Assembly: GCF_001606025.1 (NCBI RefSeq)
Contig: NZ_CP014945.1
Location: 310,001 to 374,000 of the forward strand
DNA: 64,000 nt
Direction of reading: 5' to 3'
Origin: Psychrobacter alimentarius
Lineage (GTDB): Bacteria; Pseudomonadota; Gammaproteobacteria; Pseudomonadales; Moraxellaceae
This document shows, in pieces, positions 45,259 to 62,273 of this stretch. The translations under genes were made by a program, and so were the position numbers. Each line of letters opens with the position of its first letter. Within the stretch, counting starts at the first letter, position 1. The notes under the pieces were generated by a model, which was not told the DNA's origin, ran no database searches, and was given only the letters and a program-made list of their open reading frames with translations.

Positions 45259-45280
45259 CCTATTGGTAAGGAGACTAAAA

Positions 45281-46138: not shown

Positions 46139-46180
46139 CTCGCTTATTCATTGCTCTGAAATATTATAAGGATAGATGTC

Positions 46181-49100
46181 ATGAAACGATTTAACAACGT
46201 ACCGACCACGTCTAACACTATTGCGGCGCCATTAAAGTATCTGGTCGTTGTTTTGGCATCAATGATGACAATGCCTACCTCACAAGCAGATGTGGCAGGG
46301 AAAAAGATCGGTGATTTAGAGATTTATAAAGCCGCTGAGGCAGGTAAGACGACTATCACTATGATGTTAGATACCTCAGGAAGTATGACCATAAATCAGG
46401 TAAAGGATGCTTGTGATCTTCCTGGAGGAGCAGACTATAAAAATAAAGGTTCTGAACCCTCGACGACATCGCCTAGTTATACAAGAGATTATTGCGTTAC
46501 TAATGCCAGATTTTTCTATCGCCTATCTCCTCAAGGGCAATGGTATCGTTGCGGGAGTAGTAATGGTTCTGGATCTAGTGATTATAGTTTTGATGATTGT
46601 GACAGTAAACTTAATAAAGCACCATCAGTTATAGGGTATGACTATGTCACTTCTGGTAGTAGCAATCAGTACTATTTTACGGGTGGAAAAGTATATGACC
46701 GTCTTACTCGTCTTAAAGACGCCATTTTTACATTAATGGATAGTACCCAACTGGATCCCAAAAAAGTTGCCATTGGTATTGGACAGTTCTCTTCACAAAG
46801 TGAGTCTAATAATGTGGTATCTTTCAATTCAAATGGGACAGCTGCCAATACAGATGGTAGTACTGGTAAGATACTAGTACCTGCTGCATTATTAGATGAG
46901 GCACAACGTCAAAAAATTAGAAAAGTGGTGGCTGCCGCAGGTGGCGGTAACGGTACGCCGACTGCCAATGCCTATGCAGAGGTTGGTGCTTATATGCTAG
47001 GCACAAAAACTACTGGTACAGGCAGTGGCTTTAGCAAATCCACAACGGACTCTAAATTTGGAAGCAATTATATAAGTCCACTGTTAAAACCGTCTAGCTG
47101 TGATGGGCGTGGGATTTATTTCTTAACTGATGGCGCACCAAATGGCTCGAGTAACTCTACAGCTTTAGCACTAATGAAAACTGCTCTAAATCGTAATGCT
47201 TTTGGCTTACCAACTTCAACATTACCTCATGGCAGTGCTACTGCTGGGGCTATGCCTGCAGTCGGTGCATTTGCCAAAGCCTTACGGGATTCTACAATTA
47301 CTCCACTAGGCACCGATCAAGAAATCTATACCGCCGTTGTTGGTTTTGGTGCAGACTTTGATATTGATAGAGTAGAAGATGCAAGGAAGAAAGAAAAAGA
47401 TCGAGTGATTCGTAACTTACCTTATACCAATCCAAAAACAGGCGTTACTAAAAATAGAGATTTTTATAACTGCGAGAACATAGTTGGTAAAGATAATAAC
47501 GCTACTAAAGATGCAATAAACGCTTGTAATTGGGGCGAAAAAGCCCATGACGATTTACCTGGGGTTGGCGGTTTTGGAGAAGGTGGATTCTACTCAGCGC
47601 AGTCTACAGATGATATTGTCAATAGTATTATCTCATTTGTAACTGATTTGGATAATACCTTACCTTCAATACCTTCAGGTACGATCATTATACCCGATGA
47701 TCCATATCGTGCTGATAGCCAATTAGCAGTTGCATACTACCCAACTCTACAGCCTAAAGTTGGTGATAATGCAGTGATTTGGGAAGGTAATTTGAAGAAG
47801 TATAAATTGAATGAGGGCACACTATTTGGGAAAGGGAATGTTAAGCTGTTCAAGAATATAGCAGGTGAGTTAAATCCAGCGGCACCAGATTTTTGGTCAG
47901 ATAAAAACTATGCTGGTGCTAATGATAAGGTAGAAAGTGGTGGTTTTTATGCGCAATTAAATACACCAGCGGCTGGATTAGGTTCAGTTAGAACGCTTTA
48001 TGTTGAAGATGTGACAAGTGCAGCTGATATAAAGCCCGTGTTAAGAAAATTTGGAGTGAATGATGCTGGTAAAGTAATAGTAGATGGAGCAGCATTGACA
48101 GATAATACATTTAAAGATACTGCTACCTATAATGAAACAACGTTGAGAAAGCTACTGAATTTTCTAGGTTTTAAGAATCTTCCGAGTACATCTGTAGCAG
48201 TAAAAGATATGACGCTTAGCAGCGCAAATGTACCAGACTCTATTAAGGTCTTAGGGGCAACGATTCATTCTACACCAGCATCTGTTTCTTATTCTGCTAC
48301 TCTTGATGCGGAAACAGGTAGAGTCACTGAAGCACGCGACGATTATGTATTATTCGGTTCATCTGAAGGCGGCTTGCATTTAGTCGATGCAGGCGATCAA
48401 GGTAGTGGGAATGGTGGTAAAGAAAAATTCGTTATCATACCGAGAAAGATGTTAAGTGATCCAAGCAAATCTGAAGCGCTTATTAAAGGGGCAACCAGAA
48501 ATGAGATAGGATCACCGAATTTTGGGATAGATGCTCCGTGGTTGGTCACTGCGGATTATCAATACAATTTATCCAGTAATAGAGTAAATGTTAATACCAC
48601 AGGTGGTAAAGGCGTATTTGCTTATGGTGGACTGCGTATGGGCGGTGAGGCTTTTTATGGTTTAAACCTAAACGATAACGACAATCCTAGTATGATGTTT
48701 TCTATCACACCAGCGACCTCCGGCTTTAGCCGTATGGGACAGATCTGGGAAAAACCAACCAAAGCTAGAATAAAAACAAGTACTACTGATACAGGTACCG
48801 ATGTTTTGGTATTTGGTGGCGGTTATGATATGTGTTATGAAAATGAAGGTTTCCAAGTTGGAGTTAATGATCCACTACTAGGCTTATGTTCAAACAAAGC
48901 TTCAGTCCAAGGTAATGCAGTATATATTATTAATGCTAAAACAGGTGAGTTAATATGGTCAGCATCTGCTGAAGGCTCACCGACTAAGACGGTTACTAGT
49001 ATGACTAATAGTATTGTCGCCGGTGTTACTACCTTAGACCGTAACAACGATGGTTTTATGGATCATATCTATTTTGCAGATTTGGGTGGTCAGATATTCC

Positions 49101-50134
49101 GTGCTGATTTTACCAATGCAGGTTTTACAAAACCAGTCGCCTCAGGCACACCATCACCAGAAACTTCTTTTAGCAATACTAGAGTGACGCGCATACTCCA
49201 AAGTGCTTATACAGGTAATGATAAAAAGTATAACTATCGCTTCTATGAGCGTCCTACGGTTAGTTTCTATCGCAACGATAGTACCAACTCCTTGTTTGCA
49301 TTGATAAATGCCATCTCAGGCGATCGCAGCTCACCATTATCAAAAATACGTGATAATACCAAGGCTGATAGACTCTATGGCATTATAGATAGTGATGTTA
49401 CTAAGCTAGATAATGTTTTTTATGCCAGCAACTTTACGACTGCAGGAACAGAAGGAGGTCAAGTTATCAACGATTTAGCAGATAGTAGTTTAGCTGCATT
49501 ACCCTCTGCAATCGGCACACTTACTGCTAACGGATATACGTTGGCACAAAAAAATGTAACTATTGATACTTTAAAAGACGGAACCAAAAAGGGTTGGTAT
49601 TATCCTCTGACACGCTTTGATGGCTACGGTAATGTTAGGTATAGCAAAGGTATTGGTAAGTCTGAAGTAGTAGATAGTTTTATCTATACGACCGTTTACA
49701 ATCCCGATATGAGCTATGGTGCTACAGATTCTTGCTCTGCTAAAGTGACGGGTGGTTCAGAAAGACAGCTCTATTGCTTACCTTATGGTATCTGTACCGA
49801 TAATGCTTCCAAAAATGGTACTGCTGGATATGTAAGGGCAGGTAAAGGTATTCAAGAGCTGACGCTTGGTCCACGCAGCTCGAGTCTCTCGAACCAACGC
49901 CTACTTATTGGAACACGTACATTGACCGAACGTGCCAATGACCGTGTGAATTTTGGCAGCGATGATGGGAAATTTACTTATGATACTCCTTTATTAGGGG
50001 GAGGTAAGAAGGAAGAAGGCCTACAACAAAACTTGACCACTACTGATCAGGTTATTGGTGATGGTACAGCGCCTGATATGATATTTAATGAACGTTATAC
50101 ACTACAGCCTAAAACTTGGTATGAAGTAGACTGA
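46181..50134 (+). CDS. pilY1: PilY1/PilC-type pilus tip adhesin with von Willebrand A domain
   Basis: 1317 residues, exported (signal to about residue 36, ending SQA). It sits at the pilus tip, in other species controls retraction and surface sensing, and mediates adhesion. The vWA domain starts near residue 57: TITMMLDTSGSM holds the MIDAS DxSxS at residues 64-68. IYFLTDGAPNG is the third MIDAS segment, near residue 310. The C-terminal half is the PilC beta-propeller: VLFGSSEGGLHLVDAGD, VFAYGGLRMGGEAFYGL and the Ca site LDRNNDGFMDHIYFADLGGQIFRAD near residues 951-975. A tail with several Cys follows. GGATAGATGTC precedes the ATG. Confidence 0.95.
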   Translation: MKRFNNVPTTSNTIAAPLKYLVVVLASMMTMPTSQADVAGKKIGDLEIYKAAEAGKTTITMMLDTSGSMTINQVKDACDLPGGADYKNKGSEPSTTSPSYTRDYCVTNARFFYRLSPQGQWYRCGSSNGSGSSDYSFDDCDSKLNKAPSVIGYDYVTSGSSNQYYFTGGKVYDRLTRLKDAIFTLMDSTQLDPKKVAIGIGQFSSQSESNNVVSFNSNGTAANTDGSTGKILVPAALLDEAQRQKIRKVVAAAGGGNGTPTANAYAEVGAYMLGTKTTGTGSGFSKSTTDSKFGSNYISPLLKPSSCDGRGIYFLTDGAPNGSSNSTALALMKTALNRNAFGLPTSTLPHGSATAGAMPAVGAFAKALRDSTITPLGTDQEIYTAVVGFGADFDIDRVEDARKKEKDRVIRNLPYTNPKTGVTKNRDFYNCENIVGKDNNATKDAINACNWGEKAHDDLPGVGGFGEGGFYSAQSTDDIVNSIISFVTDLDNTLPSIPSGTIIIPDDPYRADSQLAVAYYPTLQPKVGDNAVIWEGNLKKYKLNEGTLFGKGNVKLFKNIAGELNPAAPDFWSDKNYAGANDKVESGGFYAQLNTPAAGLGSVRTLYVEDVTSAADIKPVLRKFGVNDAGKVIVDGAALTDNTFKDTATYNETTLRKLLNFLGFKNLPSTSVAVKDMTLSSANVPDSIKVLGATIHSTPASVSYSATLDAETGRVTEARDDYVLFGSSEGGLHLVDAGDQGSGNGGKEKFVIIPRKMLSDPSKSEALIKGATRNEIGSPNFGIDAPWLVTADYQYNLSSNRVNVNTTGGKGVFAYGGLRMGGEAFYGLNLNDNDNPSMMFSITPATSGFSRMGQIWEKPTKARIKTSTTDTGTDVLVFGGGYDMCYENEGFQVGVNDPLLGLCSNKASVQGNAVYIINAKTGELIWSASAEGSPTKTVTSMTNSIVAGVTTLDRNNDGFMDHIYFADLGGQIFRADFTNAGFTKPVASGTPSPETSFSNTRVTRILQSAYTGNDKKYNYRFYERPTVSFYRNDSTNSLFALINAISGDRSSPLSKIRDNTKADRLYGIIDSDVTKLDNVFYASNFTTAGTEGGQVINDLADSSLAALPSAIGTLTANGYTLAQKNVTIDTLKDGTKKGWYYPLTRFDGYGNVRYSKGIGKSEVVDSFIYTTVYNPDMSYGATDSCSAKVTGGSERQLYCLPYGICTDNASKNGTAGYVRAGKGIQELTLGPRSSSLSNQRLLIGTRTLTERANDRVNFGSDDGKFTYDTPLLGGGKKEEGLQQNLTTTDQVIGDGTAPDMIFNERYTLQPKTWYEVD

Positions 50135-50146
50135 TAGGATAGTCGC

Positions 50147-50698
50147 ATGAATGTGAAAGCGTCAAAACGACAAGCAGGCTTTACGCTTATAGAGCTGATG
50201 ATAGTCATTATGATAGTGGCTATCTTAGCGGCAATTGCGATCCCATCTTATCGGCAGTTTGTGATACGTAATGCTGAGTCACAAGCACAAGCAAGAATGC
50301 AGGAGCTCGATATAGAACTCAATCGTTGGCGCGCTAGTGCATTGACTTACAAAGGCTTTATGCCTAAAAAGGTCGCTAGTAATGGCGATGTCAGCTATAC
50401 GTATGATGATCCGACTGATAATAAAACTATCTATGTCCCAAAAGGTAGCGATAGTACCAACTATAGCTATCTGATAAAATTAGTAGATGGCACCACAGGC
50501 AACACTTTGGCTCCTGCAAATACCGGCTACTCTACTGCGGGTAGCTCATGGCGTATGTTTGCTGAGCCCAGTAGCAACTATAGTACAGCCCATAAAATAC
50601 TACTCAGTAGTACTGGTCTACGATGTAAGACCAAGAATAATGATAGCAATATTACAGTGGCTTCTACTAACTGTGGCACTTATTCGGAGGAGTGGTAA
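50147..50698 (+). CDS. pilE: Minor type IV pilin PilE, first copy
   Basis: 183 residues; AGGA precedes the ATG, 12 bases after pilY1. Prepilin site [53 protein letters not shown], typical of PilE. The body is longer than usual. Two Cys at the C-terminus (LRCKTK and NCGTYSEEW) probably form the D-loop disulfide. Shares the tip-complex role with the second copy. Confidence 0.88.
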
Positions 50699-51162
50699 TG
50701 CGAATTCTAAGCGATAATGATAGAGGCTTTACTTTAATCGAAATAATGATTGTTGTCGCTATTATTGGTGTGCTAGCAGCAATTGCATATCCTAGCTATC
50801 AGCGATATGTCATCAAGACCAAACGCACGGACATGATGAGTGAGATGCAAAACATCGCCAGTCAAATTGAAAGCCGTAAACTGGCACAAGGTAGCTATAG
50901 CAATATTAGTGCACAAGTGAAAACAGACTTTGCTATTGCTTATCCAAGGCAGGGAACTCAGCTGTATGATGTAACTATTAATCCAATTACCTTAACCCCT
51001 CCTAACAATACATTAACTGCTAAATGGATAATCACTGCCACACCAAAACAAACTGCACAAATGAAAAGCGACGGAATAATAACCTTAAACTATCAGGGTA
51101 TTAAATGTCGAGGCAGCGCTCCGAATCAACAATGTGGTAGTGGCGATGAATGGAACAAGTGA
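50698..51162 (+). CDS. pilE: Minor type IV pilin PilE, second copy
   Basis: 154 residues from ATG 50698, which overlaps the previous stop (TAATG) and has GGAGGAG upstream. Prepilin site [60 protein letters not shown] is the standard PilE pattern. Two C-terminal Cys (IKCRGS, QQCGSG). This copy is the more PilE-like of the two; the first may have taken over another tip position. Last gene of the minor pilin operon. Confidence 0.9.
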
Positions 51163-51342
51163 CAAAAAATGTCATTATATATAGCAGTTAATACCAAAAT
51201 GTATGTTTACTGACAATTTTAAGTAAACAAAACGTAAACTGGGTAATTTAATGTAAGTAAAAAACTGATAAATAACGCATTTAAGCACTAATTATTAGAT
51301 TTTTTTAAGAATTTTTATAAAAAATAGACAGTCATCATAATT

Positions 51343-51442: not shown

Positions 51443-51883
51443 ATGAACGCTCAAAAAGGTTTTACCTTAATCGAACTAATGATCGTTGTTGCTATTATCG
51501 GTATTTTAGCTGCGATCGCTATTCCTGCTTATCAGAATTACATTGCTAAGTCACAAGCATCAGAAGCGTTTACTTTGATAGATGGAGCAAAAGCTGAGGT
51601 TAATACTAATTTAGAAGGCAATAGCTGTACTAATGCTACTGCTGCTAAAAATACAATTGCTGGTAAGTATGGTAGTTTAGTAATTGCTGGTACTGCTGCT
51701 AGTGATGCTTCGCCAACCGCATCAACGGGTTGTACACTTACTTATACATTTAAAGGAACTGGTGTATCAAGTCAGCTAGCGTCTAAAGTAATTGGTGCTA
51801 CATTACTTAACAACGGTACTTTGACTAAAAATGCTACCACTACTACAGTTGATGCTGATATCTTACCTAAATCATTCACTTAA
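51443..51883 (+). CDS. pilA: Type IV major pilin PilA
   Basis: 146 residues from ATG 51443 (AAAGGA seven bases upstream). A short leader MNAQKG is cut before [37 protein letters not shown], the classic pilin N-helix with Glu at +5. Two Cys in the middle (NSCTNAT and STGCTLT) can form a disulfide. Between them is an Ala/Ser/Thr/Pro-rich stretch ([13 protein letters not shown]) of the kind that PglL-type enzymes glycosylate. The C-terminus ends LPKSFT, with Ser three residues from the end. It is the main pilus fibre subunit, needed for twitching and DNA uptake. Own sigma-54 promoter and own terminator. Confidence 0.95.
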
Positions 51884-51932
51884 TAATTAGTTAACAATTA
51901 TAGACTAATTGATATGTGAAATAGATTAATAG

Positions 51933-51962
51933 AAAAGCCAAACGTCATGTTTGGCTTTTTTT
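51933..51962 (+). terminator. Rho-independent terminator after pilA
   Basis: Stem AAAGCCAAAC / GTTTGGCTTT, 5-base loop, then further T. It lies 50 bases after pilA and 26 bases before the start of the next gene, so that gene is read by leakage or from another promoter. Confidence 0.9.
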
Positions 51963-51987
51963 ATAAAAAAATTTGGCTTCATTATTT

Positions 51988-53307
51988 ATGTATAAAAAGC
52001 AATTATTAAATAATCAACAGATGACTGTCAGCATTATAAAAGCTTTAGCTAATAAAGAATCGTTTGTAGCTTTATACTCTTTAATATTTATAGTAGGTGT
52101 AACGGCAAATAGTGGCTATGGTATCTATAATGAGTCTAGGATTTTTGAGGTTGCTTTATTATTAGGATTAGGAGCACATGCTTGCTTTAATAAATATTAT
52201 ATAGTTACGAAAGTGGAGTACTTGTTTTTTGTCTTTATAATAATAGGTAGCTTTTTTTGGTCCAATTCTTTTTTTATCATAATCGATTTACTATTAGTTT
52301 ACTTGTTATATAAGAGCTTTTTCTTTTTAGAGTATCGGCCACTACTTACTAAAATTATAGTATTAGCTAGTTTCTTAATTTTCCTATTACTACCGGTAGC
52401 TATATGGGATTATATTACGTCAGGTATTTACACTAGCAATTGGTACTTATTACGTCTAAATATTCGTATTTATAATAGTTATTTTTTAATAATGTCTATT
52501 TTTGCAGTTTGGCTTTATCTTACTGAAAAAAATTATAAAAAATTGTACTTGTCTTTTATTTTCTTAGCTTTCTTATCCATCCTAATGGATGGAGGACGTT
52601 CGGCAACACTGGCCTATACAGCTTTTGTTATAATTATTTGTATATTTAGACGTCCAGTGTCATGGCAGTTGGGATTTGCGTATAGTATGTCATGGCTGAC
52701 TTATCTAACTATAAATCATCTAGCCAGTTTAAATGCTGTAGAGACACTAGATTTAGGGATAGCCAGAGCAACTACTAGCCAGCGTTATGATATTTGGATG
52801 AACGCGGTGCAGTGTTGGGTTCAAAATCCTATATGGGGTTGTGGTTTTTATCAACTAGATAGTACTCGGAATTTAGCAGCGCATCCTCATAACTTATTTT
52901 TGCAAGTATTAAGCGAGACAGGACTGATCGGTTTTTGGTTCTTGTTAGCTATTATATTTTTTATTCTTAAAAATATAAGTTGGAACTTAAATAAGGACTA
53001 CTTTGTTATCGCGTCCCTATTAGCGGTAGTCATTGAAACTTTACTTTCAGGCATTCATATATATCCGATTACACAAATTGCTTTATTGTGGCTGTTCGTT
53101 TTTTTGTTAAAAAGTTCCAATTTTTCACATGCAATATATTTTCACTCATCAATACCTAGTTTTGTAGTAAATAGATATTTCAGTGTTACTATGTTTTTAG
53201 TTCTAGTAATTCTCTTTATTTATTTTTTCATCAATACATCGGCGCTTTTGGATAATGAAATTATGACACGTCCACGCTTTTTAGAGAATGGATACAATAT
53301 TTTTTGA
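51988..53307 (+). CDS. O-antigen ligase/Wzy_C-family membrane protein, likely pilin O-glycan transferase
   Basis: 439 residues from ATG 51988 (an upstream TTG at 51973 has no better site). About ten to twelve hydrophobic segments. The Wzy_C family block includes LSILMDGGRSATLAYTAFVIII, RATTSQRYDIWMNAVQCW, NPIWGCGFYQL and AAHPHNLFLQVLSETGLIGFWFLL, with the His-containing loop (HPHNLFLQ) typical of PglL/TfpO/WaaL-type transferases. Such enzymes move a lipid-linked oligosaccharide to pilin in the periplasm (TfpO/PilO, PglL) or to lipid A core (WaaL). Position right behind pilA favours a pilin-specific transferase, as in Acinetobacter. Polymerase or ligase function cannot be excluded. Confidence 0.75.
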   Translation: MYKKQLLNNQQMTVSIIKALANKESFVALYSLIFIVGVTANSGYGIYNESRIFEVALLLGLGAHACFNKYYIVTKVEYLFFVFIIIGSFFWSNSFFIIIDLLLVYLLYKSFFFLEYRPLLTKIIVLASFLIFLLLPVAIWDYITSGIYTSNWYLLRLNIRIYNSYFLIMSIFAVWLYLTEKNYKKLYLSFIFLAFLSILMDGGRSATLAYTAFVIIICIFRRPVSWQLGFAYSMSWLTYLTINHLASLNAVETLDLGIARATTSQRYDIWMNAVQCWVQNPIWGCGFYQLDSTRNLAAHPHNLFLQVLSETGLIGFWFLLAIIFFILKNISWNLNKDYFVIASLLAVVIETLLSGIHIYPITQIALLWLFVFLLKSSNFSHAIYFHSSIPSFVVNRYFSVTMFLVLVILFIYFFINTSALLDNEIMTRPRFLENGYNIF

Positions 53308-53402
53308 TATATCCAAAATATTAAGTATATTTCTATTTCTTGTAAATGACTGAGCTTAGTACAAGAAAATTCATATTTTTCCGTTGTTCTTATAAAGAAT
53401 AA

Positions 53403-53418
53403 TGGCATGATGCATGCA
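53403..53418 (+). promoter_or_regulatory. Candidate sigma-54 promoter of the second pilin
   Basis: TGGCATGATGCATGCA: perfect TGGCA -24 half and correct GG-N10-GC spacing. It covers the start of the open frame at 53414, which shows that translation must begin further down, at 53453 or 53480. Confidence 0.6.
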
Positions 53419-53452
53419 TCATTATATTCTCACTAAGAAGCTGGTTGTTTAC

Positions 53453-53899
53453 ATGTTCAAGAATAATGACAATGCTTTTATGACACAATCTGGCTATACT
53501 TTGATAGAGCTAATGATTGCAGTAGCAATTATTGGCATACTAGCGACTATTGCTACAACTGGCTATTATTTTCAGATAAGAAAAACACAACTCATTACTA
53601 TTTATCAAGAGCTGAACAATTTTCGTATGCCTTACCAGATGCTGATAGACGAAAGTGCAACGTCAGCTAGTTTTAGTGTTACTGGATTAAATATGTCGGC
53701 ACATAGTAAATACTGTCGATTTAGCGTGTTACCGCCAATCGGGGACGGCCATGCTCCTAGTGCAATAACTTGTCACATCCAAAACCTAAATTATCTACAA
53801 AATGAATTGATCACTTTAAGCGTTACTGCTGATAGGAAATGGCAGTGTAAGGCATCTGATGGTATTCCTAAGATGTACCTTCCATCTGACTGCAAATGA
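53453..53899 (+). CDS. Second, divergent type IV pilin
   Basis: 148 residues from ATG 53453; a start at 53480 would give a shorter leader of six residues before the cleavage site. Prepilin site [36 protein letters not shown], so the mature protein would begin with Tyr instead of Phe, and the helix lacks the usual Pro at +22. The globular part has four Cys. The C-terminus (KWQCKASDGIPKMYLPSDCK) closely follows the pilin D-loop pattern Trp-x-Cys ... Leu-Pro-x-x-Cys. It could be a minor pilin, an alternative major pilin or a silent-type cassette. It sits behind the transferase gene with its own candidate promoter. Confidence 0.85.
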   Translation: MFKNNDNAFMTQSGYTLIELMIAVAIIGILATIATTGYYFQIRKTQLITIYQELNNFRMPYQMLIDESATSASFSVTGLNMSAHSKYCRFSVLPPIGDGHAPSAITCHIQNLNYLQNELITLSVTADRKWQCKASDGIPKMYLPSDCK

Positions 53900-54050
53900 T
53901 AACTCTCTTATAATTAAGTACATATACATAAAATTTTTGAAATGGATTATCTATAGCTATTAATATTATTCTTAATAAACTCTTTAATGTTTTTTATTAT
54001 AAAAAGTAAAAGTACGAAGTGTGTTAATAGTAGAGGTATATATCATTATT

Positions 54051-55319
54051 ATGCAACAAAACTTATGGCAATACTTAAGTATACGTATATTGATAGGCTG
54101 GCTGCTTGTTTCTATAATTCCAGCTTTACTATTATTCTGGAGCTTTATTGTCACTGATAATATTCTTATTACTCAAGTAAATAGTGTCATCGTAAGTAGC
54201 AGTGCTATTGTTTTTAGTCTTATTGGACTAGAGCGCTTGACTCAATTTCCTGGTCAAAAATCTATGGTAACTGTGCTACCAACATTATTGGCGAGTGGTT
54301 TATTAGCAGGATTAATCTTACTTATATTCCGACTACCTTACTCGGTTTATTACCTATTATTCAGTGCTGTGCTGGGTGTGGTATTTTGCTTTATCTCCCA
54401 AGTCGTTTTGCGGGCCGTAACCCAAGTGAAGATAGGTTATGTACCTATAGGTCGCTATCAAAGTTTACTAGATATCAAAAATGTTACTTGGGTAAAGCTA
54501 TCTAAAGATTTTCAATCCGTAAGCCATCAACACTTACCTTTCCATGCAATAGTTGCCGATCTTTCAGATCATAATTTGTGTTCAGGATGGGAGCAGGTAT
54601 TGGCCGAGTCTGCTTTGCAGGGCACGCCAGTATATAATATCTTACAAGTAAATGAGTCTCTGACAGGTCGCTTACCAATCAAGCATCTTTATGAGAATAA
54701 CCTTGGCTCCCTATTACCTTCTCCCAGTTATCTATTAATAAAACGACTGATGGACACAATCATCGTTTTGTTGAGTATGCCTGTGACCGTTCCTTTAGCT
54801 ATACTAGTAGGAATAGCTATTAAATGGGAAAGCCGTCATAGTAAAAGTACGGTACTATTCAAGCAGCATCGCATAGGACAAGGTAGTAAGCTGTTCACTA
54901 TGTACAAGTTTCGCAGTATGTTACCGGACTCTGAACAAAATGGTGCCCAAATGGCTACCAGTGTTGATGTGAGGGTGACAAAGTTTGGCAGCTTCATTAG
55001 GAAAACACGCTTAGATGAGCTACCACAGTTTATCAATGTATTAAAAGGTGAGATGAGTCTTATTGGGCCAAGGCCCGAACAATTAGACTTCGTCAGGCAA
55101 TTTAATGAAACGATTCCCTTTTATCGCTATCGACATATCGTCAAACCTGGTATTTCTGGATGGGCACAAGTTATGCAAGGTTATGCTAGTGATGAAGATG
55201 AGACTAAGTTGAAGCTCGAATATGATTTCTTTTATATTAAAAATTTCTCCTTGACTTTAGATTTGTTGATCGTGATTAAGACAATACAGACGATGGTAAC
55301 TGGGTTTGGGGCAAGATAG
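54051..55319 (+). CDS. Polyprenyl-phosphate sugar-1-phosphate transferase (WbaP/PglC-like)
   Basis: Starts glycan synthesis by moving a sugar-1-phosphate from a UDP-sugar to undecaprenyl phosphate at the inner membrane. 422 residues from ATG 54051; GTG 54021 is an alternative. Four to five N-terminal hydrophobic segments plus a CoA-binding-like middle domain as in WbaP. The catalytic domain then follows: LIKRLMDTIIVLLSMPV (membrane hairpin), FKQHRIGQGSKLFTMYKFRSM, RKTRLDELPQFINVLKGEMSLIGPRPEQ with the Asp-Glu pair, and VKPGISGWAQVMQGYASDEDETKLKLEYDFFYIKNFSL. First of the AT-rich glycan genes. Confidence 0.92.
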   Translation: MQQNLWQYLSIRILIGWLLVSIIPALLLFWSFIVTDNILITQVNSVIVSSSAIVFSLIGLERLTQFPGQKSMVTVLPTLLASGLLAGLILLIFRLPYSVYYLLFSAVLGVVFCFISQVVLRAVTQVKIGYVPIGRYQSLLDIKNVTWVKLSKDFQSVSHQHLPFHAIVADLSDHNLCSGWEQVLAESALQGTPVYNILQVNESLTGRLPIKHLYENNLGSLLPSPSYLLIKRLMDTIIVLLSMPVTVPLAILVGIAIKWESRHSKSTVLFKQHRIGQGSKLFTMYKFRSMLPDSEQNGAQMATSVDVRVTKFGSFIRKTRLDELPQFINVLKGEMSLIGPRPEQLDFVRQFNETIPFYRYRHIVKPGISGWAQVMQGYASDEDETKLKLEYDFFYIKNFSLTLDLLIVIKTIQTMVTGFGAR

Positions 55320-55393
55320 CTTGCGCTTAATAATAATTTGCTAAAAAAATATAACCTTCACTTTGTAAAGAGAATCTAAAGGAAGTATGTTTT

Positions 55394-56710
55394 TTGAATA
55401 AAAAAAACTTACATGAAAAGATAAAAAAAGCTTTAAATCATGAAGGTATTATGAGGTATGGAAAAAATATTTCATGGTTGATGTTAGAAAGATTAATAAG
55501 AACGTTTGTAGGGTTCTTTGTAAGTATTTGGATAGCTCGTTATCTTGAGCCTGTACAGTATGGTGTGCTAAGTTATGCACAAAGTTATGTTTATTTATTT
55601 GCTGTAATTGCTACGTTAGGATTAGATAATATTCTGGTTCGTGAGCTCGTAGAAAATCATCATTCAAAAAATAGAATTTTAGGAACTGCATTCTTTCTAA
55701 AACTAATTGCTTCCTTTATTATATTTCCTTTGATATACCTATCTGTTCATATTTTTAATAATGACAATAATGTTGATACTCTCATATATATTATTGCTTT
55801 AAGCATTATATTTCAAAGTTTTAATGTGATTGACGGCTATTATCAGTCTATTGTGCAATCCAAATATGTAGTCATTGCAAATTTGGTAACTATGACATTA
55901 TCAAGCCTTATAAAAATAATACTTATAACTAATAATGCTTCATTAATTGTTATTGCCATTGCTTACAGTATAGACGGTGCTTTTATAGCAATGATGCTAG
56001 TAATATTTTATATGAAAAAATCGCAACAGAAGTTATTTCATTGGTCAATAGATATTAGTACTATTAAATATTTGATGAGTGAATCTGCTCCTATGTGGCT
56101 ATCAGGTTTGATGATAGCAATATATGCCAAAACGGATCAGCTAATGATAATGAATATGGTGGGTAGTCAAGAATTAGGTTTTTATGCTGCTGCCGCAAAG
56201 TTGAATGATCTTTGGAGCTTTATACCCTTAATAATATGTTCTTCTGTTCTACCAGCTATTATAAATGCTAAGAGTATTTCGGAGAAAATATATCTTAAAC
56301 GAATTAACTACCTTTACTCTTTAATGATTTGGTTATCTATATTTATATTAATATTTGGAAGTATTTTATCAACTCAAATAATATCTCTAAGCTTTGGACA
56401 AGAATATTTGAAAGCTACTGCTACTTTCAAGTTGTTACTTTGGTCTAATATTTTTGTTTTTTTCTTTACAGCATGGGCTAGGTTTATAATTGTTGAAAGA
56501 CAGCAGAAATTGTTCTTTTATTTTGATTTATTATCTGTAATAACCAATATTATTCTTAATGTCATTTTAATACCTGAATATGGAATCAAGGGTGCTGCTC
56601 TGGCTACTGTTTTATCTGTGCCAATAGTCCATCTTCTTATATTCATTTTTTGGAAAAAACAGCGTTACATTCTTCAATCATTCTTCCGATCTTTACTACT
56701 AAGTTTTTGA
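55394..56710 (+). CDS. Wzx-type polysaccharide/oligosaccharide flippase
   Basis: 438 residues, about twelve to fourteen hydrophobic segments, MOP-family flippase. N-terminal ISWLMLERLIRTFVGFFVSIWIARYLEPVQYGVLSYAQSYVYLFAVIATLGLDNILVRELV is a strong family match. WSFIPLIICSSVLPAIINA and IPEYGIKGAALATVLSV further on are also typical. Moves the undecaprenyl-linked glycan from the cytoplasmic to the periplasmic face. The start is a TTG with AAGGA ten bases upstream; an ATG at 55451 (GAAGG close by) is also possible. Confidence 0.9.
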   Translation: MNKKNLHEKIKKALNHEGIMRYGKNISWLMLERLIRTFVGFFVSIWIARYLEPVQYGVLSYAQSYVYLFAVIATLGLDNILVRELVENHHSKNRILGTAFFLKLIASFIIFPLIYLSVHIFNNDNNVDTLIYIIALSIIFQSFNVIDGYYQSIVQSKYVVIANLVTMTLSSLIKIILITNNASLIVIAIAYSIDGAFIAMMLVIFYMKKSQQKLFHWSIDISTIKYLMSESAPMWLSGLMIAIYAKTDQLMIMNMVGSQELGFYAAAAKLNDLWSFIPLIICSSVLPAIINAKSISEKIYLKRINYLYSLMIWLSIFILIFGSILSTQIISLSFGQEYLKATATFKLLLWSNIFVFFFTAWARFIIVERQQKLFFYFDLLSVITNIILNVILIPEYGIKGAALATVLSVPIVHLLIFIFWKKQRYILQSFFRSLLLSF

Positions 56711-56730
56711 AAGTAAGAGGTTTTTTTAAT

Positions 56731-57429
56731 ATGAAAAGAGTTATAAAAGATATTTTTAGAATTTTTGGATATCATATTACAAAATTTGGTAATACTGAAA
56801 TTATGCTTGAGTCCTTTATTACTCGTTATAAAAAATATGATGATAAGTTTTTTTTTGTACAGATAGGCGCTAATAATGGTGTTAGATATGATCCAATATA
56901 TAGAATCGTTAACGAACTAAATTTGGAAGGATTAGTTATAGAACCTATAGAAGAATATTATAACGAGTTAGTAAAAAACTATTCAAATAATAAAAAAGTA
57001 AAAACAGTAAATAATGCTATATATTCCGAAAATAAAGAGTTGGTAATTTATAAAGTAAAGAAAGATGTGTGTTTACCAGATTGGGCAAATGGTATCGCAT
57101 CTTTAAACCCTAATCATCATAAAAAGACTAATATCCCTATAGATAGCATTATAGAAGAAAAAATTAAGGGGATTACCTTCGATACTCTAATACAGGATCA
57201 TCGATTAACCAGAATAGATTTTTTACAAATTGATACTGAAGGTTATGATTATAATCTTCTAAAAATGTTCCCTTTTGATAAATTTAAGCCTAAACTAATT
57301 AATTTTGAGCATTCTTTAAATAATGGAATTATGAGTTATGAACAGTATGATGAAATTCACTCGATGTTAATAAAAATGGGATATCGTACTATAATGAATA
57401 TTAACGATACAATTTGTTATTTAGAATAA
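56731..57429 (+). CDS. FkbM-family methyltransferase
   Basis: 232 residues from ATG 56731, with AGAGG upstream. SAM-dependent methyltransferase of the FkbM type: FFVQIGANNGVRYDP (motif I), LEGLVIEPIEEYYNELVKNY (acidic loop), and LTRIDFLQIDTEGYDYNLLKMF (motif IV, FkbM signature). Members methylate sugar hydroxyls or the end of glycans. In this cluster it probably caps or decorates the oligosaccharide. Base composition is far more AT-rich than in the flanking housekeeping genes. Confidence 0.88.
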   Translation: MKRVIKDIFRIFGYHITKFGNTEIMLESFITRYKKYDDKFFFVQIGANNGVRYDPIYRIVNELNLEGLVIEPIEEYYNELVKNYSNNKKVKTVNNAIYSENKELVIYKVKKDVCLPDWANGIASLNPNHHKKTNIPIDSIIEEKIKGITFDTLIQDHRLTRIDFLQIDTEGYDYNLLKMFPFDKFKPKLINFEHSLNNGIMSYEQYDEIHSMLIKMGYRTIMNINDTICYLE

Positions 57430-57478
57430 GAATAAAATTTATAAATTTTTTTATATCAATAAGCTAAAGAATACTCTA

Positions 57479-58228
57479 ATGATACCTAGAAAAATACATT
57501 ACTGCTGGTTTGGGACTAACAAGCTACCAGAGTCTACTAAAAAGTACATTCAAACTTGGAAAAAGTATTTACCTGATTTCGAAATAATATTATGGAATGA
57601 AGAGAATTTCGATATAAATTTATATTCTTATGCCAGAGATGCTTATGTAGATGGTAAGTTTGCATTTGTAGCAGATGTATGCAGAGCACATGTTTTGTAT
57701 CATGAAGGCGGAATCTATTTAGACACAGATGTAGAAGTACTAAAAAGTCTTGAACCATTATTAGAGCATACTGCTTTTGCGGGGTTTGAGGTTAGTACAT
57801 TGGATATTGTTGATGGTACTAAAGAAGTTAACTTACAAATGGGTGTGATAGGCTCCGAAAAAAAATCATTATGGATTGAAAAAATTCTTTCTCACTTCGA
57901 GTACCTAAAATATTATAAAGATAATGCTATTACTATAAACTCAATAGTAAATGAAATTGCTATTGAAGATGGATTCGAGATTAAGGATAAGTTTCAATAT
58001 ATTCAAGACTATCTTTATCTATACCCATCAGAATACTTTATTGCCAAAGATTATCAGACAGGTATTATAACTGCCTCAGTGACCACATTTTGTATTCATC
58101 ATTATGACGCTAGCTGGCTAAGTCCCCTTAACAAAACTAAATTTAAGCTTAAGCACATATTTATTCAGAAATTGAATGCGACCTTGCTCAAAAAGATTAT
58201 TATCATAAAAAGAAAGATAATTACTTAA
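57479..58228 (+). CDS. GT32-family glycosyltransferase
   Basis: 249 residues. Gly_transf_sug/GT32 pattern: IPRKIHYCWFGTNKLPESTKKYIQTWKKYLPDFEIILWNEENFD at the N-terminus, then FVADVCRAHVLYHEGGIYLDTDVEVLKSL with the metal-binding DxD. Retaining enzymes of this type act in capsule and O-antigen synthesis. Cytoplasmic, presumably adding one sugar to the lipid-linked glycan. Sugar donor unknown. The ribosome binding site is weak. Confidence 0.88.
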   Translation: MIPRKIHYCWFGTNKLPESTKKYIQTWKKYLPDFEIILWNEENFDINLYSYARDAYVDGKFAFVADVCRAHVLYHEGGIYLDTDVEVLKSLEPLLEHTAFAGFEVSTLDIVDGTKEVNLQMGVIGSEKKSLWIEKILSHFEYLKYYKDNAITINSIVNEIAIEDGFEIKDKFQYIQDYLYLYPSEYFIAKDYQTGIITASVTTFCIHHYDASWLSPLNKTKFKLKHIFIQKLNATLLKKIIIIKRKIIT

Positions 58229-58260
58229 ATATATATAGATATTTATGATGAGAGTACCAA

Positions 58261-59031
58261 ATGCAAGTTTATGTAATTAGCCTTAAGGATTCTGTCGATA
58301 GACAGAAAAGTATCAAGTCCCAATGTGAAAAATTTAACATAACGCCTGTCTTTATTGAAGCTGTTAATGGTAGCAGTCTTTCAACTTCTGAAATCAATAA
58401 ATATTGTAAGCAAGAAAAAGCAAAGCAACTATTCGGCAGAGAAATGTTGTTAGGTGAAATCGGCTGTGCCCTGAGTCATAAGAAGATATATAACAAAATA
58501 ATAAGTGAAAATCTGCCTTATGCAATGATATTTGAAGACGATGTAATTATTGAAAAAGGGTTTAATAAGGTTATAAAGTCTATATTACGTTCAGACTTGA
58601 ATTGGGAGCTAATATTGTTAGGGCATCATAAAGATATAAGCAAAGGGTTTTCTACTCCTCTAAGTATTTGGCATAGGTATAATATAACTACAGATTCATC
58701 TTTAAATCGCTTAGCAGATTTTGGGTTTGGTACTTATGGGTATATGATAACTATTGAAGGTGCGAAAAAGTTAATAGCAGCATTAGATGTTATTTATAAA
58801 CCAATTGATCATTATACTTCTAATAGTAATATTATTAATGTCTATGGGCTCTATCCTACAGTAGTCAATGTTGATAGTAATTTTGATACACTCATCGACT
58901 ATGATAAAGTACGGAAAAATACCAGTGATAAATCTTCCGTTTTGATATTAAGAAAAATAGGGATTATTAATACCATGGTTAAATTTAAAAGTATTTTTAA
59001 ATCATTAAAGCCTATTAAAAAATATAAGTAA
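58261..59031 (+). CDS. GT25-family glycosyltransferase
   Basis: 256 residues. The N-terminal MQVYVISLKDSVDRQKSIKSQCEKFNI, then EIGCALSHKKIYNKII and YAMIFEDDVII (acidic metal site), and FGFGTYGYMITIEGAKKLI match the GT25 family, whose members (LOS/LPS beta-galactosyltransferases of Neisseria, Haemophilus and Moraxella) usually transfer galactose. A Gal or related addition is therefore the best guess. GAGAG lies seven bases before the ATG. Confidence 0.9.
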   Translation: MQVYVISLKDSVDRQKSIKSQCEKFNITPVFIEAVNGSSLSTSEINKYCKQEKAKQLFGREMLLGEIGCALSHKKIYNKIISENLPYAMIFEDDVIIEKGFNKVIKSILRSDLNWELILLGHHKDISKGFSTPLSIWHRYNITTDSSLNRLADFGFGTYGYMITIEGAKKLIAALDVIYKPIDHYTSNSNIINVYGLYPTVVNVDSNFDTLIDYDKVRKNTSDKSSVLILRKIGIINTMVKFKSIFKSLKPIKKYK

Positions 59032-59042
59032 CTGGATTGTCT

Positions 59043-60077
59043 ATGTCTTTACTTATATCGGTTATCATTCCTACATTTAATTCAGAGAGATATCTACCAG
59101 CATGTCTTAATAGTATTATTGATCAGGTAGATAAAAATATCGAAGTTGTTGTAGTCAATGACGGATCAACTGATAGTTCAGGTGATATAGCTGATAATTA
59201 TGCTATTCAACATAATTTTATAAAGGTCATTCACCAGTCTAATCAAGGCGTTTCAGCTGCTAGAAATAGAGCTATACGAGAATGTATAGGAAGCTACTTA
59301 GTTTTCTTAGACTCAGATGATTTACTATATAAAGATTTTTTCAAGAAAATTTTAGAACTTATACAAAGTAACCCAGATATTTTAGAGATAAACGCTGACT
59401 TGATCGATAAAGTAGGGGAAGTATCATATGAGAAATTTTTCCTATTTGACAATGATATAGATATTATTAATAGCACTGATGCTGCTAAACTGAGACTTTC
59501 TAAGCAAGCTAAGTATTATTTATGGTCACGTATCATTAAAAAAGAGATGGTTAGCCATCTATATTTCGATGAAAAAATAAGTTTCTGTGAAGATGCCTTA
59601 TATCTAACAGAGTGTTACTGTAGAGCTGAAAAAATTATCAAAATTGATGAATCATTATACGGCTATAGACAGCATGATAATAATGTTACGAGAGTAAAAT
59701 CTATTTATAACATCAATCAGCTGACTGAGCTATGCTATATTGTGAAAAGACGCATAGATGATAGTCAAGATAAAAAATACAAAACGCTATTTTTATCATT
59801 ATGGATAAATATGGTTCATCTACGAAAAAGTATGTATGTACTTGAGTTTAAAGAAATAAGCACTGATGAAGTGACATTGCATCAGATTAGAGGTATTAAG
59901 AATGATTATAAATGGTCATTCTTTAAATTAAGAGACAGGATAAGTTGGCTGCGTCGATTTAGTATTGAATTACCAAAAACTTCTAATACGCTAATTTTAT
60001 TAAAATATTATACTAGAACACACTCATTACAGATACTTAATAAAATAAAATATTTGTATTCGCAAAGAATGAATTAA
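59043..60077 (+). CDS. GT2-family glycosyltransferase (first)
   Basis: 344 residues from ATG 59043. GT-A fold: LISVIIPTFNSERYLPACLNSIIDQ, VVVVNDGSTDSSGDIADNYA, NQGVSAARNRAIRECIGSYLVFLDSDD with the DxDD metal site, and FCEDALYLTECYCRA with the catalytic-base region. Inverting enzyme; donor unknown. The next gene begins right after its stop, so translation is probably coupled. Confidence 0.92.
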   Translation: MSLLISVIIPTFNSERYLPACLNSIIDQVDKNIEVVVVNDGSTDSSGDIADNYAIQHNFIKVIHQSNQGVSAARNRAIRECIGSYLVFLDSDDLLYKDFFKKILELIQSNPDILEINADLIDKVGEVSYEKFFLFDNDIDIINSTDAAKLRLSKQAKYYLWSRIIKKEMVSHLYFDEKISFCEDALYLTECYCRAEKIIKIDESLYGYRQHDNNVTRVKSIYNINQLTELCYIVKRRIDDSQDKKYKTLFLSLWINMVHLRKSMYVLEFKEISTDEVTLHQIRGIKNDYKWSFFKLRDRISWLRRFSIELPKTSNTLILLKYYTRTHSLQILNKIKYLYSQRMN

Positions 60078-61133
60078 ATGCATATTATTTTTATAATAAA
60101 TAGTCTAGAGAGTAGAGGAGGATCTGAAAGAGTAGCTTCTCTTTTAGCAAGTCATTTAAGTGTTCATTATAAGATAACTATTTTATCTAGATATTCTATT
60201 AATAAAAAGAATGTCTATTATCTAGATTTGAAGGTAAATGATATTAAATTTACTGGTAGTACTTTTGCTTTTTTAATGAAGTGTAAACAGTATATCGCAC
60301 AGAATAATTCAGCAATTGTCATTATCCACACTATGAGTAAGCTTACCCCCGTTTTACTAATAAGTGGTATCAAATCTAAAAATATTTGGAGTCTTGAACA
60401 TATTTCTTTTAGTTTTCATAATATTATATTTCGACTCTTGAGATACGTTTTATATAAGAAACTAGATAAAGTGATTACGTTAACTAAAGAGGATGCTAGA
60501 AGCTATGATTTCATCGCTGACAAGGTATCTACCATTGCAAATATTAATCCTTTAGAAATAAGAAGATCAAACTCTGTTTTAGCATCCAAGGTTATTGTTA
60601 GTATTGGCAGGCTGACCTACCAAAAAGGCTACGACCTTTTAATTGAAGCCTGGGCATTGGTCGAAAGTAAAAATCCTAATTGGATGCTACATATATATGG
60701 TGAGGGAGAGGATAGGAATAAAATTGAAAAATTGATTGCTGAAAAAGGTATTAAAAACATTTTTTTAAAAGGTCTTACTGACGATATCCAAAGTGTTTAC
60801 GATAGTGCTTCCTTTTACGTTATGAGCTCAAGGTACGAAGGGTTTGGAATGGTTCTTATTGAAGCTCAAAGTCGAGGATTACCGATAGTTAGTTTTGATT
60901 GTCCATCAGGCCCAGCAGAGATTCTGCAGGATGGTGTTAATGGCTATCTAGTTAAAAATGCAGATATAGAAATGCTTGCTTATAGGATTGGTCTTTTAAT
61001 AAAAGACGAGTCACTAAGGAGTGATTTTTCAAAAAATGCTTTGATATCAGCTATGCGTTTTGAGCCAGAAATTATTATCAAGCAATGGATTGATTTAATA
61101 GAAAATAACTATGATTACAGTGGCGAATCCTGA
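60078..61133 (+). CDS. GT4-family glycosyltransferase
   Basis: 351 residues, starting directly after the previous stop. GT-B fold: IFIINSLESRGGSERVASLLASHLS (acceptor-side loop), VIVSIGRLTYQKGYDLLIEAW, and the donor site SSRYEGFGMVLIEAQSRGLPIVSFDCPSGPAEIL with the E-x7-E pair typical of GT4. Similar proteins add GalNAc or glucose in pilin and capsule glycans (for example PglA/PglJ-like). Overlaps the following gene by 23 bases. Confidence 0.92.
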   Translation: MHIIFIINSLESRGGSERVASLLASHLSVHYKITILSRYSINKKNVYYLDLKVNDIKFTGSTFAFLMKCKQYIAQNNSAIVIIHTMSKLTPVLLISGIKSKNIWSLEHISFSFHNIIFRLLRYVLYKKLDKVITLTKEDARSYDFIADKVSTIANINPLEIRRSNSVLASKVIVSIGRLTYQKGYDLLIEAWALVESKNPNWMLHIYGEGEDRNKIEKLIAEKGIKNIFLKGLTDDIQSVYDSASFYVMSSRYEGFGMVLIEAQSRGLPIVSFDCPSGPAEILQDGVNGYLVKNADIEMLAYRIGLLIKDESLRSDFSKNALISAMRFEPEIIIKQWIDLIENNYDYSGES

Positions 61134-61866
61134 TTTAAAAGTTTCTATAATTATGCCTGTGTATAAGGCACGTGCAACTGTAGAACAAGCTATAAGAAGT
61201 GTTATCAGTCAAACCTACTCAAACTGGGAACTGATCATAGTCAATGATTGCTGCCCTGATAACAGCTGTCTTCAAGTCCAAGATATGATCATAAGTGATT
61301 TACGAATTTTCCGAATTGATAATATAACTAATCAAGGAGTGGCTATATCTAGAAATAAAGGTATCGCAAAGGCAGAAGGTAATATAATTGCATTTTTAGA
61401 TTCAGATGACTATTGGCATCCAGAAAAACTTAGCTTACAAGTTGACAAAATTAAGAAGGGTTACGATGTAGTATGCTCAAACTACATGAGAATAGAGCTG
61501 AATACTAAAATTAAGGAAGTTTTTAATAAGGTAGAGTTTGATTATTCTGATATGTTAAAGTCAAACCGTATAGGCAATTTGACCGGCATTTATCGTTCAG
61601 ATCGTATAGGAAAGATCTACCAAAAAAATGTAGGGCATGAAGACTATATAATGTGGCTAGAAACAGTCAAAATAGCTAAGAAAGGCTATTGTGTACAAAG
61701 CCCCCTCGCATACTATCGAGTAACGAATAACTCTCTTTCGTCCAATAAATTTCAGGCCGTACTTTGGCAATGGAAAGTATACAGGAAAGAAGTAAACCTA
61801 AGCCTTATAAAAAGTATATGGTTTTTTTTAAATTATTCCTGTACAGCTTACAAAAAACGGCAATGA
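61111..61866 (+). CDS. GT2-family glycosyltransferase (second)
   Basis: 251 residues. VSIIMPVYKARATVEQAIRSVISQTYSNWELIIVNDC, NQGVAISRNKGIAKAEGNIIAFLDSDDYWHPEKL and a shortened C-terminal part ending NYSCTAYKKRQ. The pattern LDSDDYWHPEKL resembles EpsE/WaaG-neighbour GT2 enzymes. It starts inside the preceding gene; the in-frame GTG at 61120 is an alternative start. Last gene of the glycan cluster; a strong terminator follows directly. Confidence 0.9.
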   Translation: MITVANPDLKVSIIMPVYKARATVEQAIRSVISQTYSNWELIIVNDCCPDNSCLQVQDMIISDLRIFRIDNITNQGVAISRNKGIAKAEGNIIAFLDSDDYWHPEKLSLQVDKIKKGYDVVCSNYMRIELNTKIKEVFNKVEFDYSDMLKSNRIGNLTGIYRSDRIGKIYQKNVGHEDYIMWLETVKIAKKGYCVQSPLAYYRVTNNSLSSNKFQAVLWQWKVYRKEVNLSLIKSIWFFLNYSCTAYKKRQ

Positions 61867-61871
61867 AAAAG

Positions 61872-61908
61872 AACCACCTAACCGCATATCGCCATTAGGT
61901 GGTTTTTT
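61872..61908. terminator. Bidirectional terminator between glycan cluster and fdxA
   Basis: 10-bp perfect stem AACCACCTAA / TTAGGTGGTT with a 13-base loop. It has six T on the plus side and, on the minus side, CTTTTT. It ends both the last glycosyltransferase gene and fdxA. Confidence 0.92.
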
Positions 61909-61949
61909 ATTATCTCAATATAAGTCTATTGATTTATTTAGAAAATTTA

Positions 61950-62273
61950 TTACTTCTCTAAATACTGAATCTTACCTTCTACTCCATCCCACTTTTCAGC
62001 TTCTGGCATTTGCCCTTTCATCTCTGTGATATTTGGCCATTTTTGTGCCAGCTCTTCATTGAGCTGAGTGAACATCTCTTGTCCTTTTGGTACTTCATCT
62101 TCTGAGAAAATAGCATTGGCCGGACATTCAGGCTCACATAATGCGCAGTCGATACACTCATCAGGATCGATGACAAGGAAGTTTGGGCCTTCATAAAAGC
62201 AGTCCACAGGACAGACTTCTACACAGTCGGTGTATTTGCAAAGAATGCAGTTATCTGTAACGACAAAGGTCAT
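61950..62273 (-). CDS. fdxA: 7-Fe ferredoxin FdxA
   Basis: Small electron carrier with one [3Fe-4S] and one [4Fe-4S] cluster. 107 residues, typical for the Azotobacter FdI type. Ligands are seen in [21 protein letters not shown] and in [20 protein letters not shown], with the long C-terminal tail [21 protein letters not shown] typical of this type. A common neighbour of mutS in gammaproteobacteria, as here. Confidence 0.97.

Follow-up and report, generated by a model that had tools for sequence, protein, structure and literature searches.

This paper describes a gene cluster on the chromosome of Psychrobacter alimentarius that is predicted to O-glycosylate the type IV pilus as a self-contained module. 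The sequence studied is a 64-kb stretch (referred to as the window), in which the cluster follows the major pilin gene pilA and ends before fdxA and mutS, which are located to its right on the opposite strand. With a probability of roughly 83%, the module, as read from its genes, would assemble a dedicated lipid-linked oligosaccharide and transfer it en bloc to the C-terminal threonine of PilA. The initial annotation of this DNA had proposed a transferred, exchangeable glycan cassette dedicated to the pilus, a proposal that is supported computationally by the recognition of the oligosaccharyltransferase as TfpM, the terminal Thr of PilA, the siting of the starter transferase gene, and comparisons with relatives. 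The dedication to the pilus is deduced from gene siting, and the glycan is predicted from the genes. In the following, G and L numbers designate genomes and loci, respectively, and C1 designates the contig.

The proposed gene order was confirmed by open reading frames (ORFs) and by Pfam and NCBIfam matches, and all 11 frames from pilA to the last GT2 gene are open and match their families. Known families for starter, extension, flipping, and transfer functions are present, as had been stated, and the corresponding activities are predicted from these matches. The features of the region are:

51443..51883, + strand: pilA, type IV pilin of 146 amino acids (aa) with Pfam N_methyl and Pilin domains; ATG at 51443; ends in ...ILPKSFT
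51934..51966, + strand: intrinsic terminator or attenuator in the pilA-tfpM gap (AAGCCAAAC-loop-GTTTGGCTT, followed by a T-run), read in the sequence
51988..53307, + strand: tfpM, O-linking oligosaccharyltransferase, the Wzy_C protein of the initial annotation (NF058641, PF04932)
53414..53899, + strand: second type IV pilin, recurrent in this slot, with a C-terminus that is not Ser/Thr (Pfam and locus comparison)
54021..55319, + strand: predicted starter sugar-1-phosphate transferase (PF02397; TIGR03025 below cut-off)
55394..56710, + strand: Wzx flippase (PF01943/PF13440)
56731..57429, + strand: FkbM-type methyltransferase (PF05050), with a putative start at 56731
57479..58228, + strand: GT32-type glycosyltransferase (Gly_transf_sug, PF04488)
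58261..59031, + strand: GT25-type glycosyltransferase (PF01755)
59037..60077, + strand: GT2 glycosyltransferase (PF00535)
60078..61133, + strand: GT4 glycosyltransferase (PF00534)
61111..61866, + strand: last GT2 glycosyltransferase (PF00535 match at C1 371144-371521, i.e., window 61144-61521; NF047683 190.7 bits, cut-off 400)
61868..61911, no single strand: bidirectional terminator in the cassette-fdxA gap (A-run, CCACCTAA...TTAGGTGG, T-run), read in the sequence
61950..62273, - strand: fdxA, conserved right-hand anchor, present in 103 of 105 genus genomes
46181..51162, + strand: PilY1 and minor pilins, left-hand neighbours (ORFs), strongly diverged from the nearest relative

A Shine-Dalgarno-like AAAGGA precedes pilA at a spacing that fits the start at 51443. 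The tfpM frame (51973/51988) adjoins the pilA stop at 51883, and its ATG at 51988 is thought to be a more likely start than the TTG at 51973.

In the proposed mechanism, the starter transferase would place a sugar-1-phosphate on undecaprenyl phosphate, after which up to five glycosyltransferases (GT32, GT25, GT2, GT4, and GT2) would lengthen the chain, in an order and to a structure that can presently be given as predictions. The FkbM enzyme may O-methylate the chain, Wzx would flip the completed oligosaccharide, and TfpM would attach it en bloc to PilA at the C-terminal Thr. A Wzy polymerase was not found in the cassette among frames of at least 90 aa compared with Pfam and NCBIfam: TfpM is the sole PF04932 protein, and every other such frame belongs to a family other than Wzy. 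Because the cassette has no Wzy, one glycan unit per pilin is expected. The initial annotation had left the choice between a single-unit glycan and a polymerase role for the Wzy_C protein; the former is the present expectation, and the latter is contradicted by the TfpM match described below.

The Wzy_C protein matched a single NCBIfam model, that of TfpM (NF058641), with 665 bits against a cut-off of 600 and over the full model (positions 1-421), which identifies it by sequence as a pilin oligosaccharyltransferase of the TfpM family. At E ≤ 0.01 its only domain is PF04932, with neither PglL_A nor Wzy_C_2, and known TfpM and TfpO proteins are likewise described as being without these two domains (PMC12645811). 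According to the same source, the substrate of TfpM is a pilin encoded in its vicinity, which it modifies at a C-terminal serine or threonine, and the reducing-end sugar of the glycans that it accepts is glucose, galactose, or an acetamido sugar (PMC12645811, including its Table 1). Residues Arg265, Arg271, His304, and His306 (numbered from the TTG at 51973) are invariant in 12 of 12 aligned TfpM proteins, including the one studied here, which is also the only PF04932 match in its genome at E ≤ 0.001. TfpM was detected in 13 of 105 genus genomes, 11 over the cut-off and two at 593 and 562 bits, a count that leaves out two genomes with 106 and 22 bits; among 348 genomes of the family, two further ones, of other genera, carry it at E ≤ 1e-60. 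In 12 of the 13 genus genomes, tfpM immediately follows a pilin gene; in the remaining one, a single gene intervenes. A search for loci related by tfpM returned one locus, in Psychrobacter piscatorii (88% identity), and a sequence search of the Protein Data Bank (PDB) with TfpM gave no match.

The C-terminal Thr of PilA (...ILPKSFT), the predicted glycosylation site, conforms to a rule that holds for all TfpM partner pilins found: 15 of 15, from three genera, end in Ser or Thr. Twelve of these are from interval loci and the others are from G092, G265, and G298, of which G265 and G298 represent other genera; in L074 the partner pilin is located one gene further upstream of tfpM. The same ending occurs in 22 of the 204 remaining complete pilins of the intervals, a set that includes minor pilins (Fisher test on the 12 partners versus the 204 others, 3.5e-11, a value that overstates independence as the rows are related). 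Beside TfpZ alone, a Ser/Thr end is found in 1 of 13 pilins. In 10 of the 15 TfpM partners, the chain ends three or four residues after the last cysteine (e.g., CVAS, CSAT, CRST). Two pilins from genomes without detected TfpM, in L023 (G079; ILPKSLT) and L101 (G064; LPQSFS), are near the TfpM partner type, and a loss of the transferase is possible in these cases. A function of the Wzy_C protein as polymerase or WaaL ligase was considered and rejected on the basis of the TfpM equivalog match together with the C-terminal Ser/Thr rule.

The siting of the starter gene links the assembly genes to the pilus. At E ≤ 1e-130, the cassette-type starter was found in 10 of 105 genus genomes, with 70-100% identity and in one place each, and all 10 places are inside the pilA-fdxA interval, each with a Wzy_C-domain transferase. 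This transferase is TfpM in the window, G040, G063, G061, and G014, and a longer, PglL-like protein in G094, G028, G018, G074, and G077, where it is encoded on the opposite strand in G028 and G074. Across 88 loci, TfpM or a PglL-like transferase is present in 10 of 11 cassette loci versus 13 of 77 others (Fisher test, 2.4e-6, uncorrected for kinship). The best NCBIfam scores of the starter are to models of the exopolysaccharide (EPS)/WcaJ type, all below cut-off (TIGR03025, 287.7 bits, cut-off 295.55). The model for WcaJ (glucose) scored 238.6 bits versus 161.9 for WbaP (galactose), both far under cut-off, which may hint at a first sugar of the glucose type that would fit the tolerance of TfpM.

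The genome also has a separate capsule-type locus at C1 848-869 kb, with genes of the Wza, Wzc, sugar-modifying, Wzx, glycosyltransferase, and starter types. A frame of 143 aa in this locus looks like Wzb, and a frame of 405 aa without Pfam match may be Wzy. Genome-wide, PF02397 was found in two places (the cassette and C1 867 kb), PF13440 in three (the cassette, C1 858 kb, and C1 2757 kb), and the Wza-type domain PF02563 at C1 848 kb (848662) and 503 kb (503622), with none in the cassette.

Comparison with relatives revealed exchange of the region between species. With the dxs-like protein at 18762, the nearest relative is G088 (96%), and P. piscatorii (G040) follows at a considerable distance (86%). 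Genes upstream in the window share 86-98% DNA identity with G088, mostly 90-95%, and the stretch up to 43409 about 90-93%. From there as far as 61867, the sole match of any length covers 0.8 kb at the pilin genes (69%). The G088 interval contains three pilins and neither modifier nor cassette, so that the whole block differs from this relative: minor pilins, PilY1, pilA, tfpM, and cassette. The block that differs from G088 is larger than initially annotated, as it begins at approximately 43.4 kb and includes PilY1 and the minor pilins. At 43409-51200, PilY1 and the minor pilins have diverged strongly from G088 though the genes just upstream are 90-98% identical; judged from these sequences, pilus tip and shaft genes appear to have been exchanged too.

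The reverse pattern was found in P. piscatorii, which shares 92.5% DNA identity with the window in tfpM, 98.7% in the starter, 98.9% in the GT2, 95.5% in the GT4, and 95.9% in the last GT2 gene, versus 67-87% over 13 upstream genes and 79.7% in mutS. The fdxA gene is 95.7% identical and much alike across all four genomes compared, and PilY1 and pilE of P. piscatorii have hardly any DNA-level match to the window. Between 55335, just 3' of the starter, and 57476, two bases before GT32, the Wzx and FkbM genes of the window stand against a PglK-type ABC transporter and a GT2 gene in P. piscatorii (the transporter family was assigned by scanning the L036 member). The cassette is thus a mosaic. No donor of Wzx and FkbM could be named from a Wzx protein search that yielded 1050 matches at E ≤ 0.001 among 8000 candidates scored; among the best 120 of the 1050, one copy is 98% identical and the next best 72%. 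At the right-hand side, identity with L036, L041, L047, and L074 resumes at 61866-61869, which places the edge at the stop codon of the last GT2 gene and bears out the sharp end described before fdxA. Modules are exchanged among species, probably by homologous recombination through shared sequence in the pilA 5' end, the starter gene, and fdxA.

GC content, taken in 1-kb steps, is low (0.26-0.38) over the stretch from about 51.0 to 62 kb; the remaining sequence has mostly 0.40-0.49, with a few single dips (lowest 0.342, at 7.5-8.5 kb). By gene, it is 0.371 for pilA, 0.307 for tfpM, 0.372 for the second pilin, 0.383 for the starter, 0.288 for Wzx, 0.255 for the FkbM frame, 0.312 for GT32, 0.298 for GT25, 0.293 for GT2, 0.319 for GT4, and 0.344 for the last GT2. 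The AT-richness reported initially for 54-61.9 kb is real, with the correction that it sets in at pilA/tfpM and that the starter is the least AT-rich gene in the dip. Four genes of the capsule-type locus have a GC content of 0.26-0.35, and because another glycan cluster of this genome is likewise AT-rich, base composition is by itself a weak indication of transfer, and low GC was not taken as proof of it. Conservation of the same genes with normal GC in all relatives, named initially as an argument against transfer, was not found: TfpM is present in 13 and the starter in 10 of 105 genus genomes.

The comparison of the pilE-fdxA interval across Psychrobacter that had been suggested revealed swapping of modules. 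Up to 20 kb upstream of fdxA was taken from 99 genomes, which gave 87 loci (the window included) with both pilE and fdxA. Six modifier classes were distinguished, for which scanned representatives gave the names and clustering assigned the other members: TfpM, PglL-like, TfpX/TfpZ (NF041437 267.5 bits, cut-off 200, in L019), beta-lactamase-like (~400 aa), sulfatase-like, and ICMT-like. Thirty-eight loci have none of these classes and no starter (median interval 2.1 kb), one of them being L115 with a D-arabinofuranose-type set; 39 have a modifier without starter gene (4.0 kb); and 10 have a starter cassette (14.2 kb). In the PglL-like cluster (n=11), PF04932 was found in 11 of 11, Wzy_C_2 in 10 (not G074; 8 over cut-off), and PglL_A in 6 (4 over cut-off), and the name 'PglL-like' is used since the latter two domains are partly missing or below cut-off. 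The cassette flippase is of the Wzx type in the window, L018, L043 (broken), L060, L074, L113, and L114, and of the PglK ABC type in L025, L036, L041, and L047. Among locus pairs with core DNA identity of at least 93%, 38 of 52 differ in module content (31 loci with a core piece; pairs overlap), a comparison that serves as a partial substitute for kinship correction of both Fisher tests. On balance, the interval from pilE and the minor pilins to fdxA-mutS seems to be a genus-wide decoration slot, in which TfpM or PglL-like transferases with or without a private assembly line, TfpX/TfpZ, the D-arabinofuranose-type set, and candidate beta-lactamase-like or sulfatase-like modifiers are swapped, and in which the flippase class is exchanged while starter and late glycosyltransferases are kept.

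Several observations concern other occupants of this slot. The PglL-like transferase is encoded on the strand opposite to the pilins in 4 of 11 loci (L018, L046, L094, and L113). The beta-lactamase-like protein (L033:17666-18808, with PF00144 in the scanned L033 member) recurs in 14 further loci (L029, L031, L032, L051, L073, L074, L075, L084, L087, L088, L093, L098, L110, and L111), with Ser-x-x-Lys and Tyr-Ser-Asn invariant in 15 of 15. A hydrophobic stretch at its N-terminus suggests that it is membrane-anchored, and the pilins beside it frequently carry an Ala/Ser/Thr/Pro-rich tail after the last cysteine. A PDB search matched the protein to beta-lactamase-like serine peptidases; it is a candidate for a new pilin-modifying enzyme. 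The sulfatase-like protein (L051:16152-17486, PF00884 in the scanned L051 member; also L032, L056, L084, L088, and L096) is joined by the beta-lactamase-like one in 4 of 6 loci and had no match in a PDB sequence search; as a guess, it may be a phospho-group transferase acting on the pilin. In L115 (G078; 12097-18600), a D-arabinofuranose-type set is located between two pilin genes, with DprE1-like (350 bits) and DprE2-like (158 bits) proteins, both below cut-off, as well as UbiA and HAD proteins, and parts of this set also occur in L032 and L050. A protein of 637 aa in L115 had no family match and no match in a PDB search. The fdxA gene is present as a tandem pair in G016, G029, G053, and G100.

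Several findings weigh against pilus glycosylation by a dedicated, jointly exchanged module. Glycosylation is predicted here from the genes, and the starter falls under every NCBIfam cut-off. Of the cassette loci, L043 is without an intact transferase, although this locus as a whole is fragmented into many short frames and its genome is 84% complete. A Ser/Thr pilin end is not exclusive to TfpM partners. Of the pilins accompanied by a PglL-like transferase and no other modifier, 2 of 7 have it, and so do 4 of 9 that neighbour the beta-lactamase-like protein, whether or not the sulfatase-like one is also present. In G074, a remote TfpM-like protein (106 bits, excluded from the TfpM count) follows a pilin ending in His. 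The mutS gene to the right of fdxA is only 83.5% identical to that of G088, so that the right flank is not undisturbed. In P. piscatorii, GT25 (80.8%) is at core level, and GT32 (87.8%) and the second pilin (84.5%) are hardly above it; because these genes are near core identity, the cassette did not move as one block. Finally, TfpM occurs without cassette in 7 of 12 classed genus loci (L034, L035, L042, L048, L083, L087, and L089; the thirteenth TfpM genome, G092, was left unclassed as the locus ends at a contig edge). TfpM in these loci therefore evidently uses glycan made elsewhere, and TfpM and cassette are not obligate partners.

This outside supply is what an alternative would extend to P. 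alimentarius: TfpM would glycosylate PilA with the repeat unit of the capsule-type locus, and the cassette would build another surface glycan. There are Acinetobacter systems that share the capsule glycan in this way, and what appears to be a capsule locus in the present genome includes a starter transferase of its own. The cassette starter, however, is confined in 10 of 10 cases to the pilA-fdxA interval with a Wzy_C-domain transferase, and the cassette is without its own polymerase or export gene, which makes this alternative improbable. Still less probable is a cassette for lipooligosaccharide (LOS)/O-antigen or capsule, in which the Wzy_C protein would be a WaaL ligase or Wzy and a chance neighbour of pilA. 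GT25, GT32, GT2, and GT4 genes are frequent in lipopolysaccharide (LPS) and capsule clusters. Moreover, the O-antigen-ligase domain is common to WaaL, as described in PMC12645811; against this stand the TfpM equivalog score over cut-off, the position of tfpM directly 3' of a pilin gene in 12 of 13 genus genomes, and the Ser/Thr ends of 15 of 15 partners. A decaying or non-functional acquisition, for which low GC and patchy distribution could be adduced, is the least probable, as all eleven frames are open and match their families and the invariant TfpM residues are kept.

In the pilin-accessory cassettes of P. aeruginosa, expression of the accessory gene is proposed to be attenuated by a terminator that separates it from the pilin gene (PMC11841053). 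The terminator following pilA in the window would probably keep the glycosylation enzymes scarce relative to pilin. The stretch 51884-51985 folds at -23.3 kcal/mol (z -4.05), and the terminator at 51934-51966 was missed by a consensus scan. The bidirectional terminator described before fdxA is legible in the sequence at 61868-61911; the scan gave its + strand side only. Over the whole region, the scan returned 5 sites versus a mean of 4.2 in shuffled sequences, no excess, and because of these counts both terminators are put forward on the basis of the sequence and the fold of one of them. A promoter scan (72 predicted versus a mean of 67 in shuffles) was uninformative. Elsewhere in the window, two genes close to a group of tRNA genes (28509-31547) form a McrBC-like pair (AAA_5, PF10117) that shares 67-73% DNA identity with three relatives, below most of its neighbours.

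Relative to known systems, the window is close to the TfpM systems of Moraxellaceae (NF058641) in the model passed, the position of tfpM beside a pilin gene, and the Thr pilin end, and is distinguished by the lipid-linked glycan assembly set that trails tfpM. Wzx/Wzy-dependent capsule clusters contain a starter transferase, glycosyltransferases, and Wzx. The cassette resembles them in these functions and is without Wzy, Wzc, and Wza. In Neisseria, the PglL gene is not known to be closely linked to pilin. The pgl system is alike in the use of a lipid-linked glycan and O-transfer to pilin, and PglL is described as a general transferase (PMC12645811), whereas TfpM of the window is pilin-linked. 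The pilin-accessory cassettes of P. aeruginosa, groups I-V (TfpO, TfpW, and TfpX/Y/Z), have in common pilA, an intrinsic terminator, an accessory gene, and an exchangeable locus (PMC11841053); a pilin/accessory terminator and alternative accessory genes among relatives were likewise found here (87 loci). In that account, the accessory genes encode either a transferase or a TfpX/Y/Z protein, and O-antigen or D-arabinofuranose serves as the glycan (PMC11841053); in P. paraeruginosa, the genes for D-arabinofuranose synthesis form a separate island (PMC12369383). The P. paraeruginosa Pa5196/PA7 system (TfpW; RGP80) is alike in that a glycan is made for the pilin, and differs in its chemistry and its distant gene cluster (PMC12369383). 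Compared with these accounts, the glycan-making genes of the Psychrobacter window occupy the pilin/transferase slot itself, and a UbiA/DprE1-like/DprE2-like set comparable to the P. paraeruginosa island is located inside the slot in L115. The transferase family is therefore known, and distinct from P. aeruginosa is the presence of glycan-making genes in the exchangeable slot with pilin and transferase. Among the titles listed for Psychrobacter, none is about pilin glycosylation in this genus, within a literature that did not include the TfpM discovery paper (Knoot et al. 2023).

These loci offer natural experiments, as TfpM occurs with and without neighbouring glycan supply and similar cassettes carry either a Wzx or an ABC flippase. 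TfpM enzymes with differing native glycans are also useful for glycoengineering, and the unnamed modifier families of the slot are candidates for new pilin chemistry. Pili are phage receptors, and pilin glycosylation is reported to protect against pilus-specific phages (PMC11841053, PMC12369383). Linkage of sugar genes, transferase, and pilin would allow the pilus coat to be changed by recombination at one place, leaving capsule and LPS untouched.

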